A stretch of DNA of 64,000 bases from Euborellia annulipes. Its lineage: Eukaryota; Arthropoda; Insecta; Dermaptera; Anisolabididae. Position 1 is the first letter of the stretch, and every line of letters starts with the position of its first letter. Both the position numbers and the translations under genes were made by a program. Where the stretch lies: positions 1 to 64,000 of the forward strand of contig JAKCPI010001635.1 in NCBI GenBank assembly GCA_023213315.1, read 5' to 3'. Positions 7,991-61,135 of the stretch are shown here, piece after piece. The notes under the pieces are model-generated. The model was not told where the DNA came from. It searched no databases and saw only the letters and a list, made by a program, of their open reading frames with translations.

Positions 7991-8043
7991 ATCAAATAAT
8001 GAGAGAGATTATGAAAGGATATAGAATAAAAAAAAAAGTTTAG

Positions 8044-8232
8044 TCTAAAATTGTTTATTAAATCAAATTGATGTGATCTAACCCAATACACCTTCGCTTA
8101 GCATGCCATCTTCAAAGATAGATAGTTTCATTACAGCTCATTGTTTACCCTGGCTTACCTCTGAAGATGGCATGCTAAGCTAAGGTGTATTGGGTTAGGT
8201 CAGATCAATTTGATTCAATAAACAATATTAGA
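8044..8232. repeat. Long inverted repeat with CTGAAGA motif
   Basis: The arms share TTGTTTATT-AATCAAATTGAT, AACCCAATACACCTT and TTAGCATGCCATCTTC, with a loop of about 45 bp. The right arm contains CTCTGAAGATGGCATGC, the 5' half of the hammerhead-like core seen in other palindromes here. No GAAAC follows, so it is a relative or decayed form at best. Confidence 0.7.
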
Positions 8233-8353
8233 CAAATAAACGACTTTTTTATTTATTATAGGTCCTTTCATATTGTATTAAGAAGATTTGTCTTTGGAAG
8301 AAAAACATCTTTATATACTTGTTCATATTTTACACTGGGTTAAAAAATACTTA

Positions 8354-9440: not shown

Positions 9441-9712
9441 GGATATATTATTTTTTTGAATTAAATTAAATAAAGGGTTGGAATTTCACATTTTAAAATC
9501 AATAGGAATTTTTTATAAAGAATAAAATAAAATAAATAATTAAATAAAATGATAGATTCTCAAACAACTATTTTCATTCTATGTAAAAAAAAAATTATGT
9601 ATTTTTTTTAAACTAATGACATCTCTATTAAAGTAGGCCTACTTAATTGAATGTAGCAGATTTAATAGCTGGAATAGTTGATGAGTAAGTAAAAATAATA
9701 GGAGCTATTTTA

Positions 9713-10258
9713 TATTTCATTTATTAAGGCCAACTAATCTGACGTTTCGGTCTTGATTAAGGCAATCTTCAAAGTTTGTGGGCTGTCAATAGAGGCACAA
9801 GCTCTGAAGCATCTTCAAAGTTTGTGGGCTGTCAATAGAGGCACAAGCTCTGAAGCATCTTCAGAGTTTGTGGGCTGTCAATAGAGGCACAAGCTCTGAA
9901 GCATCTTCAGAGTTTGTAGGCTGTCAATAGAGGTACAGGCTCTGAAGCATCTTCAAAGTTTGTGGGCTGTCAATAGAGGCACAAGCTCTGAAGCATCTTC
10001 AAAGTTTGTGGGCTGTCAATAGAGGCACAAGCTCTGAAGCATCTGCAGAGTTTGTGGGCTGTCAGTGGAGGCACAAGCTCTGAAGCATCTTCAAAGTTTG
10101 TGGGCTGTCAATAGAGGCACAAGCTCTGAAGATAGTCTTAATCAAGACCGAAACAACCAATCAAGCTTGTGTCTCAAATGACCGCTCACAAGCTCTGAAA
10201 CTGGTCTTAATCAAGACCGAAACGTCAGCTTAGTGGGCTTTATTAAATGAAATATACA
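9713..10258. mobile_element. Penelope-like palindromic element with internal tandem array
   Basis: The outer inverted ends are TTCATTTATTAAGGCC...CTGACGTTTCGGTCTTGATTAA and GGTCTTAATCAAGACCGAAACGTCAG...TTTATTAAATGAA. An extra copy of the right motif is at about 10133-10154. The inverted ends carry hammerhead-like cores: 9741-9772 (-, C3 replaced by T), 10126-10154 (+, CTGAAGA and GAAAC intact but no GUH) and 10195-10226 (+, CTGAAAC). Between them is a 46-bp tandem array. No reverse transcriptase remains. Confidence 0.65.
9765..10132 (+). repeat. 46-bp tandem repeat, 8 units
   Basis: Eight contiguous 46-bp units start at 9765, 9811, 9857, 9903, 9949, 9995, 10041 and 10087. They are nearly identical, with substitutions such as TTCAAAG/TTCAGAG. 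Each unit ends with CTCTGAAGC and starts ATCTTC. The last ends CTCTGAAGA and runs straight into the helix II-like sequence. There are no spacers, so it is not a CRISPR array. Confidence 0.95.
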
Positions 10259-11950
10259 ATAGCTTACTCATTGAGTACTTAAATCATTTTTAAGTAACGT
10301 TAAAGTTAATAGTCCTAACAAAAAGTTCTGTAAATTTTAAATTCAAGTAAAATCAGTGATTAAATGCGATAGTGCACCCCTTAGAAGTGGCTTATCAATT
10401 TTAAATTAAAATATCATTTTTTTTTTGATAACCCAGGCTTATATGCAGCACGATATTAAATTATTTCAATTATGTTTTATATAATAAATACCATTATTTT
10501 TTAATATGAATCAAAGGGATTTTTTAAATTAAATTTATTGTTTTTGTTTTTATAAATTAAAAATTACGATCTTTTAAAAAATACTATATTTTGCTTTCTG
10601 TGTATTTATAAATTATAAAAAAATATTAAAAAAAAAAAAAAAAAATAGAATAAACATAATGAATTCATCAAAACAATTTTTCTCTCATAACACCGCGATA
10701 GAATAATTAATTCAGGCAAATATGATTATTTTTTAATTTTTTTTTTTTATTTATTTATTTTTTAATATTAAATCCCTTTGATTATTATTTTGAAATGTTT
10801 TTAAACAATATGTAATTATTTGTGTTATGAGATTATCATTTTGATATATAATACACGAATGCGAGGCGAAATCTCAATATGGACTTAATTAATATCAACA
10901 GTGAATAAAAAAAAAAGGGCAGGAGGGACAGGATTGGGGGGAGAGGAGGAGGGAGGGATTGCAAATGCGAAAACATAAAAGGGTTCGATTTTTGATCTCG
11001 ATAATGATGCTAATGCCGAACAGCAAATGAATATTAAATAGGTAGCCCTAGTTAATGATCTTGTCATAATTTTGATATTAACAAACAAGAAAAATATATT
11101 TTTTTTTTAGATTAGGATATTTCCATAAACATGGATTATAAATTAAATATAAAATTCAAAAGATAGTGAAATTTTATGTGTTAATTATTTAAATTATAGT
11201 ATATATGTGTATTAATGTTGGTTAAATTAGCAAAAATTAAGCCAAAACATTGAGCTTCAGTAATTTGGAAAATTATAATGCTAGCTTTTGAGCTTGTTCA
11301 TGTAAATGAGGACTTCTTAATTTTTTTTAAAGCCATCGAACACGTTTGCTAAATAAAAGATATAGAAAGTTCTTTATTGTAACACTAACAATCTTAAGGA
11401 CTGAAAAGCTTCGTCGCCGGAAAAATAAAGAATTAATAAAAAAAAAAAATTGAGCCCTTGAGTTGGTTTTGGTTGGGATAATTCTCAAGCTTAAAGATAT
11501 AATAAAAATCTTAGGTTGTGTTAATCTATAAAGCATTAAGCGCCTGGAAGATAGACAACTCAATTGACTAGCGAGAGTTTTGTTCGAATTTCGACAGACA
11601 AAAAGCAAACCCAAAATATATTTATTGATTTTTTCATCAATTTAATATTAAAAAAATTTTTTTTTAATTAGAAATTTCTAATTTTTAGTTATTTGTATCA
11701 GAGTTAAAAAGAAGACGTGTAGGGTATAGATTTTATTTTTTAGACAAAATGATTCGGGAACTTGCTTCTCTATTCTCGGTGCCAAAAACCAAAACTCCTC
11801 AGCCCAATTCAATGCTGGTCTCTAGTCTATAACAGCTTTCGTATTCAATTAACAATATAATACAATATAACCAATACCAACAATGAGTGTATTGAAAATA
11901 TAAATAAAATATTAGCGCTATTAAAACATACTTTTTTAGAAATTTTTTTG
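10259..11950. other. A/T-rich stretch
   Basis: Very A/T-rich, with long A/T runs around 10620-10770. A slightly more complex unique tract lies at 10861-11090 (purine-rich GGGAGAGGAGGAGGG). No supportable gene. Confidence 0.5.
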
Positions 11951-12147
11951 GATTAAATCGTGGTTTATTTTATCAAATAATAATACAATAAAATGTGTTA
12001 CTAATTACAATAAAATACAACGTTTCGGCTGCTAATTCTGCAGCCGTCTTCAGGTAGATGAATTAGCAGCCGAAACGTTGTATTTTATTGTAATTAGTAA
12101 CAGATTTTATTGTATTATTATTTGCTAAAATAAACCACGATTTAATC
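11951..12147. mobile_element. Penelope-like palindrome with hammerhead
   Basis: Near-perfect arms of about 85 bp run from GATTAAATCGTGGTTTATTTT to its complement ending at 12147. CAACGTTTCGGCTGC and its complement lie near the centre. The central loop carries the hammerhead upstream half on the minus strand. The element is too short to encode protein. Confidence 0.75.
12018..12054 (-). ncRNA. Hammerhead ribozyme core (Penelope type)
   Basis: The minus strand reads CTGAAGA, a helix II with GGCTGC/GCAGCC pairing, then GAAACGTT. All conserved core residues are present. ACGT gives the minimal palindromic helix III typical of Penelope-like hammerheads, with U as the cleavage-site base. Penelope-like motifs are thought to work best as dimers. 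Activity is not shown. Confidence 0.6.
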
Positions 12148-13149
12148 AAAATAAGATGTAGGCCTATTTATAAAAGATCATGCCTGAAACAATCTTAATG
12201 TTTTTCTTTTATTTATATGATATCTTTAACAAGTCTATTATTAGTATTTCTAAAATAATCATCTTAAAATGGCAAACTCTGATTATAAAACGTTTTTTTT
12301 TTTTCAACGTGTAAATTTTAGTTAAATTCATAAATAAGCATCACGAAATAACAAAATATAGGTTTTGTAAAACTAAAATATAGTAAAAATAATGCTATTC
12401 AAACAGAAAAATGTTTAAAAGATCTGGTGATGAAAAATTCGACAACAATTCACTACCTTAAAATACTAACTTTTTTAATTATCAATGGAGAAAAATTTTA
12501 TATATGAAAAATTGTCAATTCATATTAAAGTATTATTAGAGTTAATTTATATTAAACATTTTGGAATTGAAATAAGAAACGATTGGTCCATCTACGCGAT
12601 TGATGGCCTCAAAGTTTTATTGCCAAGACTTAAATGAATGGACAAGATACATTACGAAGTAGAAGCTGTCAGAGAGTCAAGAATCCTCTTTTGTCAGAGA
12701 TGAATATATAAGAAATAAATTGCCTATGATTTTGTATCGATAGCGCAATTATTTTTTTCGTTATTTCACTTTCACAAAGGAATTTTTATGACTCACGAGG
12801 CATCAAACAAATAATAATATTGAAGATGAAAATTATCATGTAATAAAAAATTCCCTAAATAATCATTAATTATTTTGTACCTATTCTTAAAATTGATGTA
12901 TAATTATAAAAAAAATAAAAAAAGTGGCGTAACTACGCAGAAACTTGTGCCCCCGCAATTATTAAATTTACGTTTATATGACTTTGCAAAAAGATAACGT
13001 TACTATTATTTCTGAGATAAAACGGCAATAGGAAGTTATATTATTTATTTTGATTTTTTTACTAAAATGAAAGAAATTTTATTTGTTGGGATAAGTGCCA
13101 TTTCTATTTATCCAAATTTGACAAAAGAGTTTTTGAAAAGAAAGTTTGC
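12148..13149. other. A/T-rich non-coding stretch
   Basis: No gene or repeat recognised. About 12580-12750 is more complex unique sequence of unknown role. Confidence 0.5.
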
Positions 13150-13322
13150 CTGGGCGCACACGGTCGAATTTTATTCGAGCGATAGTTTAGTCGATGAACA
13201 TAAATGCATTAAAAAATCGAGTTGATCTGCAGTTGTCGTGTGCGCACCTACAATGAACTTAATGTATTTCATGTCCATCGACTAAACTATCGCTCGACTA
13301 AAAATCGACCGTGTGCGCCCAG
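13150..13322. mobile_element. Foldback MITE with CG-rich ends
   Basis: The terminal inverted repeats are CTGGGCGCACACGGTCGA with its complement, then CGAGCGATAGTTTAGTCGAT, giving roughly 50-bp arms around a short core. An internal GTGTGCGCAC echoes the ends. No convincing target duplication was found, so the superfamily is open. Confidence 0.7.
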
Positions 13323-15184: not shown

Positions 15185-15290
15185 TTTATTTCGAGATAGA
15201 CGTTTCAACATCCTTTCATGGAATCAAAAATTGTTCATCTCGAGGAAGGATGTGACTTTCGCCCGAAACGTCGAGCAAAAAACAAATTGA
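15185..15290. mobile_element. Decayed Penelope-like palindrome
   Basis: The arms TTTCGAGATAGACGTTTC and GCCCGAAACGTCGAG are inverted, with CATCCTTTC/GGAAGGATG inside. The plus strand shows CGAGGAAGG...CCCGAAACGTC, resembling a hammerhead with a mutated CUGANGA box. Confidence 0.45.
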
Positions 15291-20040: not shown

Positions 20041-20269
20041 GAAAGCGGGGGAGGAGGACAGCGTTTCTCCAAAGAGAAGAAATTTACAAATAGCATCAAA
20101 ACAGATGATTATATCACAGAGGTAATTTTAATCAATCTTTATATGGAAGTATTTAACTATTTTATGAACAGGAACAATTTTGGGGACAATCAATAAAATC
20201 TGGGGAATAGTTGGAGTTGGGAAGAATAAAACCAGCGTTGTCGAACACCTATACACTTTTATTCAGGCA

Positions 20270-20304
20270 GACGTTTCGGTAACCATAACGGTTGCCATCT
20301 TCAG
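20270..20304 (-). ncRNA. Hammerhead ribozyme core, left arm
   Basis: The minus strand reads CTGAAGA, a helix II with GGCAACC/GGTTACC-type pairing, then GAAACGTC. All core residues are intact, with the minimal ACGT helix III and C as cleavage-site base. Confidence 0.65.
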
Positions 20305-20408
20305 TGCCAATGAAAGTTTTTTAAGGTGTCCCTGTCATACATAATAATCTTATATAGTTATAGGATTATTATGTATGACAGGGACACCTTAAAAAACTTT
20401 CATTGGCA

Positions 20409-20443
20409 CTGAAGATGGCAACCGTTATGGTTACCGAAACATC
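20409..20443 (+). ncRNA. Hammerhead ribozyme core, right arm
   Basis: The plus strand reads CTGAAGA, helix II, then GAAACATC. It differs from the left-arm copy by G to A in the ACGT helix, which should weaken helix III. Confidence 0.55.
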
Positions 20444-20644
20444 TGCCTGAATAAAAGTGTAAAGGTGTTCGACAACGCTGGTTTTATTCTTCCCAACTCC
20501 AATCTCACATACCCAGCATACAACTTAATCTGGGGAATAGTTTTTCATAATGAGAAAATCTCAAAATACTTTAAAATTACTACTCTAAGAAAAGATTACG
20601 AGTTCAATTCAACGAAGGTGCATTCGAAGAGGAGACAAAAACCA

Positions 20645-20939
20645 AAATTATGATGGAGAGATGGAGATATCAGCCAAATTGGAATGCTCTAGGTTCAATA
20701 AAACTCCCAGAATAAGACGTTTCGGCCAAATAAATGATCATTTATAACTTGGGCACATGAGCCATATAATTTTGTATGAAGCAAATAAATTTTATTTTTG
20801 GCAAATCCTGGTTCAATCACACGTGCACTTGCATTATGTGTATACTGAAGATGACCAAATAAATTCAGGCCGAAACGTCTTATTGTACTGAACCTTGAGG
20901 ATTCCAATTTGGCTGATATCTCCATCTCTCCATTATAAT
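20645..20939. mobile_element. Penelope-like element with inverted arms
   Basis: Left arm TATGATGGAGAGATGGAGAT...AATAAGACGTTTCGGCC is inverted relative to right arm GGCCGAAACGTCTTATT...ATCTCCATCTCTCCATTATA. About 140 bp of unique spacer lies between. Only the right arm has the complete hammerhead. The element at 60705-61080 belongs to the same family by its shared 3' tail. Confidence 0.75.
20845..20879 (+). ncRNA. Hammerhead ribozyme core
   Basis: CTGAAGA, a weak helix II closed by TGACC/GGCC-like bases, then GAAACGTC. The catalytic core is complete; helix II pairing is short. Confidence 0.5.
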
Positions 20940-23087
20940 CACAACTTAGCCACAACTTCAAGTAATTATTTAACCAAAATTGTATGAGGAAAAAAAATTC
21001 GTTCTTTTGGTTAGACAACCCAACTAACCAACACAAAATTGATTTGATTTTCCCTCCCCCAGAATCGTGAGAGAAATCGCTAATTTTTCGATCAAAAGTA
21101 AAAATATTGTTAAATTATTTAAAATAAAATAATTAGAAAGAAATTTACCTAAAACGGGCTCGTAGTTTAAGAGAAATTGATTTTTTGAAGGGAGAACAAC
21201 CGACGCCCAGCTGCACTTTTCAATCACTATCATTGCACTAAATGCCGATGAGAGAGAATTCAGCGTGAATTCAACCCTCTCTTCGGTGACAGATTCACTA
21301 CTAAATGGTCCTATGGCAGGTAAGAAAATGCCATCTAAGATCTGCTGTAACTTGTCCAGACAGTCAAGTCAAGGCAGGTAAAGATATTGATAAGTATAAT
21401 CAAAACTAACACTAAAAAAGCTATTAATTTGGGAATTTCTATAACTCTTTATAGGAGTTATAGGATCATTATTGTTAAAGAAATTCTTAATTAATATACC
21501 ATTTATAATTGTATTATAGATCCCTACTTATCAATATCCCATAACTTCGATGGGCTATAGGGTTATTTAGTAAATTATTGTATGAAATGTATACTAAATA
21601 GTAACGCTTATAAAATTAGTAAGCTTATAATTTGAAATGTTGAAAAAATAATTATAAGGAGAGGAATATGAAATGATTAAATAAATGATTGATAAAGTAT
21701 AGATATCCAGGAAATTTTTCATTTGTATTTAATTTAAAGTTAATTGCTCAATAACCTTTCGTGTTTTTAAAAATTACTGTATATAAATTTCTTGAATTTT
21801 TTTTTTTTTTTTTTTAAATAAAAATAAATTAAACATCAGATAATAAAAATAAGAAGATAATTTTAAATGAATTAGAATTCAGAATCAAAACCCTTGGGGG
21901 CTGATGTGAAGAAAAATTGGATGCAGCAAGAATTACCATTTAATTTTAGTATATCAAATTTGTTAGTATTTTTTTTTTTTAAATTAAAATCCAATAGGAT
22001 TTTATTATTCTTCTCATTTTTAAGATCCTCAAGTGAAATTTCATATTTTTAAAATTTAATCAAATGATATTTCAAAATTAAGATTTAATAGTGCTTCTCT
22101 AATTGAGAGAGATTCCTGACATCCAATTTCTCAACATCTTAACCTAATTGAAGAAATGGGGAAGGGTACCAAAACACCAAAAGTGTGAATAAAAGAAGGT
22201 TGAGAAACACGAATAATTAGAAGACAAACCGTGGGAGAAATTAATTAACAGATACCAAGTATATTAAATTCAAATTTAAGATGAAAATTTGAAATCAATA
22301 TTTGGAATTTTATTTCCATTTCCAATTGGAGAAACATTTGTTGCGAGTGATTTGATGGTAATTGAAGGCTCTTGACTCAGCATCCGACTATGAGATCATT
22401 TTTGCTCTCTCTCTCTCTCTCTTTGAAGTTCAATTGCGGATTAAAAGTTCAACGGGTGTCGAGATATTTTTTTTTTTTCTTAGATGATTACTCACCGCAA
22501 AGCATCGTAAAATGTGCTATTTAAATACACCAAGTATAAATGTCAGTTTATGGTCTTATTTACACGACGCTAAATAAATGAGGCCCGAAGAGTTGAAGAA
22601 GAAGAGAATTGATTCAAACGAACAAGTTGCAATCTATTTTACTTTATGAACATCCTGCAACGGAAGTCATTAGCAGTTAATAAATTAACTACAAGTGGTG
22701 AATTAAAAACAAAACAAAATGGAATAAAAAAAAAATTAAGGTTTGAAATAAACATGTTTGAGATTTTTATTATATTCTCTTATGTGAGTTCCGCAAATTT
22801 TTACAGCCAACCCCGTTATTTATAATATCAACATAAAATTAATTAAAGTTAAATGTTTTTTTTTTGTTTGTGTCTTAATGGGACTAAAGGAATTCATCAT
22901 ATATCTAAGCTTTACCTGTTCTTTTGTTCTTTTTGTTGAGTGTTCTTTTTTTGACAAAATAAAAGAGTAGGTTGGAACATAAGATGAATAATGAATTATC
23001 TTTTTAAAAAAAAATTTATTATTTTCCGCATCTTAATATCATAAATTACATTTACCAAAATTAAAAATATTAAACCTATATAAAGTT
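20940..23087. other. A/T-rich stretch with scattered unique patches
   Basis: No supportable gene. More complex unique tracts lie at 21020-21400 and 22090-22660, the latter including a (TC)n run at 22404-22422. Confidence 0.5.
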
Positions 23088-26033: not shown

Positions 26034-26205
26034 TACCCGAAAAAAATAAGGGTGTGCCGCCGGGAGTTGAACCACGGATCTTCCAATTTGTACTCGGAGT
26101 GCCCTTACCTAAACCACCTGTGGTCTAGTGGTAAGGGCACTCCGAGTACAAATTGGAGGATTCGTGGTTCAACTCCCGGCGGCACACCCTTATTTTTTCG
26201 GGTAT
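26034..26205. repeat. Perfect hairpin of a tRNA-like SINE
   Basis: Left arm TACCCGAAAAAAATAAGGGT...GAGTGCCCTTAC is complementary to right arm GTAAGGGCACTC...ACCCTTATTTTTTCGGGTA with very few mismatches and a short loop around 26110-26130. Each arm holds a tRNA-like unit with A box TGGTCTAGTGGTAAGG and B box GGTTCAACTCC. Confidence 0.85.
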
Positions 26206-49397: not shown

Positions 49398-49581
49398 AAC
49401 AAAAAAATTCTTAAATATATCAATAACTAGTCAAGTCCGAATCGAGGTCTTCATTCAATATTAGTATATTATTCAAATAATATATAGCTCTGGAAAATTA
49501 TTTAAATTTAAAATTATTATGTTAGCGAGGCGAATAGCTGAATCAGTATGTAGTAGAAAATAAAAGGTCGAGCAGCTATGT
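49398..49581. other. A/T-rich stretch
   Basis: Nothing recognised. Confidence 0.4.
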
Positions 49582-49692
49582 TAATTTCTTTATTTAAGAA
49601 CCCACAGCGACGTTTCGCGACTGAACTCTAGCCATGAAGATGGTCGCATAGTCGACCGAAACGTCGCTGTGGGTTCTTAAATAAAGAAATTA
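49582..49692. mobile_element. Penelope-like palindrome
   Basis: Arms TAATTTCTTTATTTAAGAAC, CCACAGCGACGTTTCG and their complement are separated by about 40 bp. The plus strand from 49634 to 49665 has ATGAAGA, helix II (TGGTCG/CGACC) and GAAACGTC: a hammerhead core with C3 replaced by A. Confidence 0.7.
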
Positions 49693-50033
49693 AAATTATT
49701 ATTTAAAAATACTGGAGTGTATGAGATAATTATTTATTTATTAACGTTTTGAAGTTTACTCGTATCCTAATACAGAAGCAGTCGCATAAATAAATGTATT
49801 CCAATAAAATGAATTTTGTTTTCACTTTGTTTCTAAATAAGGAAACTTCCCTTCATAGCGTTTATATTAAATTATTATTTAACTCCTGTTAGTTATTATT
49901 TCGACTTTTTTATAAATAATTAAAATTCAAAAATAGTAAATAAATCAAAATGAAAGTGAACATTGAAAATATATTGATTTCTATTCAGATTAATTTAAAT
50001 TTGACAGAAGTGTAGAACTGATAATATCTATCT

Positions 50034-59216: not shown

Positions 59217-59392
59217 CAACCTCTAATAGGAGAATTAAATTCAAGTATGATACACGAGGTTTTTTGTTTCAATTATTTATTTATTTAACATTAACACTTT
59301 ATACGTATTTCGACACATATGTGTTAAATAAATAAATCATTCAAACAAAAAACCTTGTGTATCATACTTGAATTTAATTCTCCTATTAAAGC
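59217..59392. repeat. Perfect-arm foldback
   Basis: TAATAGGAGAATTAAATTCA, AGTATGATACACGAGGTTTT and ATTTATTTAACA are mirrored by the complement ending at 59392, with a 30-bp centre (TTTATACGTATTTCGACAC). A one-arm fragment is at 34313. Confidence 0.8.
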
Positions 59393-59514: not shown

Positions 59515-59770
59515 TTTTATTTTAGGATCAGTTCACAACGTTTCGGTCCTAGAAAGAAGATTATATCGCCTGCTGAGAATCATAGTGACGAAAGTCCGAA
59601 AATAATAATATAATCTCCTCATCAAAACGGAAGAGGCTCCATGTAAGAACATAGGCACTTATGATAATAATATGATTATATATGGCTTTATGACACAGCT
59701 CTGGGGATGGTTCAAACAGGTCCGAAACGTTAGCCGTGGCTGATCCTAATAAAGAAAATTCGCTGGCTGC
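59515..59770. mobile_element. Penelope-like element, decayed hammerhead
   Basis: Inverted TTAGGATCAG...ACAACGTTTCGGTCC and GGTCCGAAACGTTAG...CTGATCCTAAT lie about 170 bp apart. The plus strand 59701-59731 reads CTGGGGA, helix II (TGGTTC/AGGTCC) and GAAACGTT, a hammerhead core with A6 changed to G. It also contains the motif CTGCTGAGAATCATAGTGAC shared with 48830-49397. Confidence 0.6.
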
Positions 59771-60704: not shown

Positions 60705-61080
60705 AAAAAAAAAAATGATAGATTGTAATGGAACGTTTCGGCCTAAATTATTGGACAATCTTCAATTAGTGGCCTACAAAATTGTATAAAGAGTGTTAGC
60801 ATTAATATACATTTTTATTATTAAAACATGACAAAGTCTTGTTCAATAACATGTGTATATTATAATATGTGTACAATTGTAAATAACAAAAAAAAAGTCT
60901 AATCAATTTGGTTATAATAATAATAATGTATATTAATGTTAAGACTATTTTATACAATTTAGTAGTTTCCAATAAAACTGAGGATTTCTCAATAAATGTA
61001 AGCCGAAACATCTTATTCTAGGAATTTTATTAAACCTGGGGCACCACCATTTCTATCTTTCCATTACAATTCCAACACAA
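60705..61080. mobile_element. Penelope-like element, same family as 20645
   Basis: Left: GATTGTAATGGAACGTTTCGGCC. Right: AGCCGAAACATCTTATTCTAGG through TCTTTCCATTACAATTCC and CACAACCACAAC, which parallels the right arm of 20645-20939. The minus strand 60732-60765 holds TTGAAGA...GAAACGTT (C3 replaced by T). The plus core is listed separately. Confidence 0.7.
60978..61012 (+). ncRNA. Hammerhead-like core
   Basis: CTGAGGA, a poorly paired helix II, then GAAACATC. The core residues are present, but the ACAT replaces the palindromic ACGT and helix II looks weak, so activity is doubtful. Confidence 0.4.
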
Positions 61081-61135
61081 CCACAACTACAACCATCAAA
61101 AATGTTAGAAGAATAAAGGTAAAACAACTGAAATG

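Follow-up and report, generated by a model that had tools for sequence, protein, structure and literature searches.

What kind of element is a palindrome that carries a hammerhead ribozyme motif on each strand, and how did its two halves come to lie head to head? The question is raised by positions 20197–20542 (locus C) of a 64,000-nucleotide stretch of contig JAKCPI010001635.1 of Euborellia annulipes, referred to here as the window (G+C 30%). A sequence-only reading had seen in it a small non-autonomous retroelement of a type known from Penelope-like elements (PLEs), an interpretation that our analysis partly supports. From its sequence we would rather describe the locus as two Penelope pLTR-like units in inverted orientation, one of them tailed: a clean form of a Penelope-type layout that is already known.

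The inserted unit (20213–20526, 314 bp) lies between perfect 16-bp direct repeats (Table 1). The repeated 16-mer, AATCTGGGGAATAGTT, is 100% identical at 20197–20212 and 20527–20542 and is found nowhere else in the window (2 occurrences); the longest direct repeat in base-shuffled flanks averaged 5.8 and reached at most 10 (60 single-base shuffles), against 16 at C. The claim that the hairpin was inserted as one unit with a 16-bp target duplication is thus borne out. The inverted arms (20211–20354 and 20359–20502, 144 bp each) are 98% complementary across a 4-nt spacer and differ at 3 of 144 positions (20363, 20441 and 20462). The locus had been described as a near-pure palindrome of about 310 bp; the inserted unit measures 314 bp and ends in 26 bp (20501–20526) that have no match in the left arm. 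Each arm contains an ATG, the A of which is A9 of the ribozyme (20415 on the plus strand, 20298 on the minus strand). Counted from this A, the left arm reaches +86 and the right arm +112, and a stop codon common to both arms lies 11 codons past the ATG.

Chance was ruled out as the origin of the palindrome or of the motif at C by shuffle controls. A miRNA precursor was also considered and rejected: many Rfam miRNA families match at relaxed thresholds because the palindrome is a long near-perfect hairpin, but every one of them stays under its gathering score (the best has 88.7 bits where 200 are required). The earlier reading had made no mention of the tail, of the ATG within the ribozyme or of the other inverted pairs in the window.

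Table 1 Coordinates of the features of locus C and of the other accepted inverted pairs in the window
Feature	Positions	Strand	Basis
Locus A, inverted pair, hammerhead motifs present, arms separated by 46-bp tandem repeats	9703–10264		
Locus B, palindrome, one complete motif (minus), one partial (plus)	11944–12154		
Locus C, left target-site duplication, 16 bp	20197–20212		identical to 20527–20542
Locus C, left arm, pLTR-like unit, tail-less, ends +86 of own ATG	20213–20354	−	arm comparison
Locus C, type I hammerhead motif of left arm, GAAAC-GTC, predicted cut after 20270	20264–20310	−	covariance model
Locus C, ATG of left ribozyme, A9/stem II border, same stop as right arm	20296–20298	−	
Locus C, spacer, 4 nt, head-to-head inverted junction	20355–20358		
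Locus C, right arm, pLTR-like unit	20359–20500	+	arm comparison
Locus C, type I hammerhead motif of right arm, GAAAC-ATC, weakened helix III, predicted cut after 20443	20403–20449	+	covariance model; single-arm MFE shows helices I + II
Locus C, ATG of right ribozyme, A9/stem II border, frame closes after 11 codons	20415–20417	+	
Locus C, tail, 26 nt, right arm only, 73% A+C, ends +112	20501–20526	+	
Locus C, right target-site duplication, 16 bp	20527–20542		identical to 20197–20212
Locus D, inverted pair of C type, ends +86 / +121, possible 10-bp duplication AACCAAAATT at 20640–20649 / 20972–20981	20650–20971		
Locus E, inverted pair, left-arm extension (not AC-rich), ends +50 / +114, AT-rich 13-bp repeat at 49508–49520 / 49690–49702	49521–49689		
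Locus F, inverted pair, motif on both strands, minus core A for C3	50022–50302		
Locus G, inverted pair, motif on plus only	59545–59770 (approximate limits)		
Locus H, inverted pair, motif on both strands, minus core T for C3, AC-rich stretch after right arm	60735–61099 (approximate limits)		

Both arms of C read CTGAAGA-T-GGCAACC-GTTAT-GGTTACC-GAAAC, followed by GTC on the minus strand (20304–20270) and by ATC on the plus strand (20409–20443). The order in each arm is GGCA, then the core with stem II and GAAAC, then GUC (minus) or AUC (plus), then UGCC, which is that of a type I hammerhead, and the type I core CUGANGA ... GAAA with NUH before the cut is present in both. Helix I is formed by GGCA/UGCC; helix II comprises seven positions with one C·A mismatch, and one extra U lies between A9 and helix II. 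On the minus strand helix III consists of only an A–U and a C–G pair, with no loop. The predicted cut falls 26 nt past the ATG triplet, at +29 from its A. The motif reported for each strand, CUGAAGA–helix II–GAAAC, is thus confirmed by the sequence and by a covariance model built with C left out (below), and the minimal helix III of Penelope type is supported; the plus-strand arm loses even the C–G pair, an A in place of G at 20441 leaving a C·A mismatch.

Such a minimal helix III would need a dimer or a protein for cleavage. Lunse and colleagues are said to have found in 2017 that minimal hammerheads associated with PLEs cleave as dimers, and the segment GAAACGUC contains the self-complementary ACGU, so that two ribozymes could share helix III. 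PLE hammerheads are minimal versions without helix III according to the cited passages of two reviews (PMC6155905, PMC7761336).

No Rfam hammerhead model reached its gathering score in the whole window and none matched up to E 10 within 20150–20600, in searches that had no published PLE hammerhead as a positive control. A loose regular expression for the core matches 11 times in the window and in none of 20 dinucleotide shuffles. All sites, those at C included, were chosen by their core motif. A covariance model of helices I and II, built from 10 sites at the seven other loci (A, B and D–H), matches both arms of C (minus, 37.3 bits, E 6.8e-8; plus, 34.2 bits, E 5.1e-7); the core part of such a score follows from the selection of sites, and the helices are unselected except for the CC that ends helix II. 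The covariance-model search that the sequence-only reading had put forward as a check thus comes out empty with Rfam and positive with a model drawn from the window itself, which suggests that the Rfam hammerhead models may miss such minimal forms.

The alignment used to analyse covariation contains 12 rows from 8 loci and 9 pairs. Standard pairs occupy 75.9% of its 108 cells, compared with 24–46% when slid by 1–3 columns. The covariation score is 0.539 (0.197 in shuffles), a value that none of 500 shuffles attained, and none had as many doubly changed cells either (0 of 500); doubly changed pairs (7 of 9) were at least as numerous in 93 of 500 shuffles, and further pair types in 64 of 500. 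Permutation of partners among 8 loci, each represented by a single site of our choice, gave p 0.0003 for helix I and, for helix II, p 0.0037 with the first four pairs and 0.24 with the first three. With a second choice of one site per locus the corresponding values were 0.0021, 0.040 and 0.75, and with all 13 sites they were <1e-4, 0.0008 and 0.41. Compensatory change across loci thus supports both putative helices, I and II. The maintenance of helix II among copies, on which the earlier interpretation depended, is thus borne out by the test with four pairs, although the one with three pairs is not significant; next to the core, two base pairs show almost no variation and are therefore hardly informative on pairing.

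Site A+1, which has a broken cut triplet, belongs to the 13-site set and was left out of the 12-row alignment; B+, D−, E− and G− have no readable 5′ half and were left out of both. Loose matches without the conserved CCGAAAC (−5734, −11802 and +27089) were not counted as loci, nor were GAAAC-only sites with no partner seen and no CTGANGA (+15264, −52214 and −51147). Under the covariance model, −51147 scores 11.3 bits (E 2.0) and +15264 scores 16.4 bits (E 0.066). The latter, a single borderline site at 15237–15277, is perhaps a decayed copy without a partner.

The palindromic arrangement bears directly on whether either ribozyme can form. A transcript from either strand had been expected to contain a ribozyme, which is correct for its sequence; folded as a whole, however, the C palindrome is one hairpin (−256 kcal/mol, z −37) in which neither ribozyme is formed. 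The minimum free energy (MFE) fold of the right arm on its own contains helices I and II, with a total energy no better than that of shuffles (z −0.65). Among short-segment folds (n = 6), C−, C+ and A+2 show helices I and II and B− shows helix II only, while F+ and E+ do not fold as hammerheads. Since a transcript across the whole unit would be a single hairpin, the putative C hammerhead is probably active solely in transcripts that begin within an arm and run outwards, on either strand, perhaps as a dimer or with the help of a protein.

The eight accepted loci of the window (A–H) are all head-to-head inverted pairs, with a minus-strand motif on the left and a plus-strand motif on the right, and they are not uniform in length. 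Only at C is the consensus core intact on both strands. Locus A has three sites, each with a change in the core or the cut triplet; B, E and G have a full-length motif on one strand only, and the second motif of D is degenerate. Comparison with shuffled flanks revealed no target duplication beyond chance at A, B, F, G or H, and the length of the 10-bp repeat at D is within the shuffled range (maximum 10 in 60 shuffles). Taking that repeat as a duplication, the tail of D is 63% A+C; the extension at E is 51% A+C and longer than the C tail. The arms of D are nearly identical in their outer part and strongly different in their ribozyme regions, whereas those of F have the ribozyme and the 3′ part in common and differ in the 5′ part, and both have the same stop 14 codons after the ATG.

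About eight 46-bp tandem repeats fill 9765–10131 inside locus A, and each unit contains CTGAAG, like the start of the ribozyme core. Loci C (20197–20542) and D (20640–20981) are only about 100 bp apart, and there are eight or nine such insertions in 64 kb; this spacing and number suggest a high copy number or clustering. An inverted pair at 8040–8236 (81 nt, 90%), in which CTGAAGATGGCATGC or TTGAAGATGGCATGC occurs together with a degenerate GAAA segment, scores weakly under the covariance model on both strands (12.2 and 11.9 bits) and is perhaps a ninth, diverged locus. In the window, 29 pairs of inverted repeats measure at least 40 nt and lie within 3 kb, and pairs without a linked hammerhead site, such as 13150–13322, 26041–26198 and 59221–59391, may be other foldback or MITE-like repeats.

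To our knowledge, the mode by which PLEs insert is still poorly known. A PLE is defined by a reverse transcriptase ORF, plus a GIY-YIG endonuclease in the EN+ clades. The 314-bp insertion at C is too short for a reverse transcriptase/endonuclease ORF and, unlike PLEs of the Penelope/Poseidon clade (PAc, Drosophila virilis Penelope and Adineta vaga Pen), has no ORF between or after its arms, the in-frame stop following soon after the ATG. No PLE protein was found when 10 of the 376 open frames of at least 45 aa in the window were compared with Pfam (no match); no open frame of the window exceeds 151 aa, a lack of long ORFs that, together with the G+C content of 30%, suggests eukaryotic DNA. At most, C would be a non-coding PLE derivative, and its membership rests on anatomy.

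That anatomy can be compared with two PLEs in particular. In PAc, from Anolis, the cited passages of PMC11167929 describe reverse transcription that starts internally at two adjacent sites, the sequence between them being the ‘tail’; the commonest product starts in an AC-rich stem loop 111–118 bp into the ORF, and the enzyme cuts and extends both target strands. Both arms of C resemble PAc, as described there, in having a minimal hammerhead at the pLTR/ORF border with the ATG at stem II, and the right arm ends at +112, near the internal starts of PAc and likewise AC-rich. The A. vaga Penelope has, in the passages cited from PMC3846280, head-to-head inverted pLTRs, an optional 31-bp tail on one of them and duplications of 8–10 bp, the pLTR covering the first 12 codons and the tail reaching codon 22. 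C has the same inverted head-to-head pLTRs, optional tail on one and target duplication of variable length (16 bp at C), and differs from that description in its end positions. The layout with one tailed and one tail-less unit found in those passages is present at C, and also at D and E if their short repeats are duplications. From this set of likenesses we judge the Penelope-related reading of C well supported.

C can also be set beside other small systems that carry hammerheads. Metazoan non-LTR retrozymes (RNAs of about 170–400 nt), which have been proposed to be moved by PLEs, are like C in being short, AT-rich and non-coding and in having a type I hammerhead. Retrozymes, however, form tandem arrays in head-to-tail order, and their hammerheads have loop contacts and, in most cases, a real helix III (it is weak in amphibians), whereas C is an inverted pair, with no head-to-tail arrangement and a helix III that lacks a loop. 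Terminons carry PLE-like minimal hammerheads according to the cited part of PMC7761336, but are giant and attached to telomeres, and nothing of that sort is seen at C. A literature search by title, incomplete in coverage and therefore a weak indication of absence, returned nothing on ORF-less inverted pLTR pairs with hammerheads.

We consider it likely that C is a PLE-derived short insertion, in which two pLTR-like units of about 170 nt or less were placed 5′ end to 5′ end by two-ended target-primed reverse transcription. The observations that such a scheme has to accommodate are the anatomy of the unit, its duplication, the asymmetry of the tail, the ATG within the ribozyme and the covariation of the helices. 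An RNA starting near the present centre of C would carry the minimal type I hammerhead, the ATG and an AC-rich priming region. A PLE reverse transcriptase/endonuclease supplied from elsewhere would cut the two target strands 16 nt apart, and each target end would prime internal reverse transcription on its own short pLTR-type RNA, with the first start site (+86, no tail) used on one side and the second (+112, with tail) on the other. The two cDNA ends would then be joined, giving a head-to-head palindrome with a 4-nt spacer, and gap filling would produce the 16-bp duplication. Priming by each target strand on an RNA of its own, with either of the two starts, would account together for the target duplication, the inequality of the ends and the head-to-head arrangement. 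The source of the enzyme, the order of priming and the activity of the ribozyme are the parts that we infer. As for the last, cleavage of PAc in vitro needed protein, ribozyme mutants still inserted and, in the passages cited, no reads ended at the predicted cut (PMC11167929); insertion may therefore be independent of the ribozyme.

The main rival to two-ended priming is a fold-back copy, in which a single PLE cDNA (or antisense RNA) folded at its 3′ end and copied itself, the second arm being a copy of the first. The tiny 4-nt loop and the near-identical arms of C suit this origin, and self-priming on an antisense template is the explanation favoured for palindromic inverted junctions by the A. 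vaga authors in the passages cited (PMC3846280). A fold-back should, however, copy the tail too, yet one arm stops at +86 at C, and also at D if the 10-bp repeat there is a duplication. The differences between the arms at D and F also fit two templates better, although a large loop or decay could mimic them, and we regard a fold-back origin of C as rather unlikely. Far less probable still, to the point that we give it little weight, is a foldback DNA transposon or MITE whose hammerhead-like sequence came by PLE descent or by chance. Long inverted repeats and a duplication, as at C, are what such an element would show, and inverted repeats are common in the window (the 29 pairs mentioned above), but the duplication measures 16 bp at C and apparently 10 bp at D and 13 bp at E, the two ends are unequal, the limits of the arms are defined relative to the ATG, and a chance motif is unlikely in view of its absence from all 20 shuffles.

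A further alternative is compatible with two-ended priming and differs as to the source RNA: C could be an ordinary, heavily 5′-truncated insertion of an autonomous PLE, without any separate non-autonomous family. The cited parts of PMC8969392 and PMC3846280 describe 5′ truncation of PLEs when they insert, as well as inverted pLTRs and short 3′ extensions; the loci of the window, moreover, vary in length. The shared stops, 11 codons after the ATG at C and 14 at F, speak against it, a point that an intron or a downstream start would remove, and so does the fact that both C arms begin within a few nucleotides of the same place. We rate truncation of an autonomous element as a serious possibility, with chances somewhat short of even.

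Returning to the two-ended insertion of pLTR-like units, the early stops shared by the arms of C and by those of F imply that the source RNAs did not code from that ATG. This would speak for dependence on a helper, except if an intron or a later start lies at that place in the autonomous element, and the early stop common to both C arms makes a small non-autonomous form, as initially suggested, plausible. A more specific proposal, which we advance tentatively and on balance doubt, is a dedicated helper-dependent class, a SINE-like inverted dimer in which a short promoter–hammerhead–ATG–tail RNA is inserted twice, once per target strand, by a PLE enzyme. If this were the case, nearly every insertion would be a head-to-head pair complementary to itself, its two ribozymes pointing outwards, one per side; the genomic copies would naturally document how target-primed reverse transcription proceeds from two ends, and transcripts of whole units would be long double-stranded hairpins open to small-RNA silencing. 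C itself records both ends of one event, one tailed and one tail-less, near the internal starts of PAc in vitro as given in the cited passages. If the pattern were confirmed genome-wide, counts of junctions would allow a test both of two-ended insertion and of what the hammerhead contributes.

Searches of other collections returned the following. The motif pattern has 71 matches in a genome contig collection, close to a rough chance estimate of about 54, and a 26-base string from the C arm has none there. In a viral contig collection the motif pattern identifies 19 loci and a second pattern has 0 matches. Several of the viral sites resemble phage hammerheads in which helix III is complete, and they were rejected as relatives of C. 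One viral site, searched against phage records, gave no match, nor did a protein search with one repeated open frame of the window. Rfam returned nothing at gathering score on five of these viral contigs, and no hammerhead up to E 10 at the L018 site. By eye, what looks like a full type I hammerhead is visible in viral contigs L002 (4413–4456), L003 (6155–6189), L006 (1273–1307), L008 (174–208), L018 (3203–3248) and others, with CCCGU-CUGAUGA-U-stem II-GAAAC, a long helix III, GUC-ACGGG and a varied stem II. The hammerhead-like sites in L002, L003 and L008 lie a few tens of bases before an ATG, and the extra U before stem II is common to the viral sites and C.
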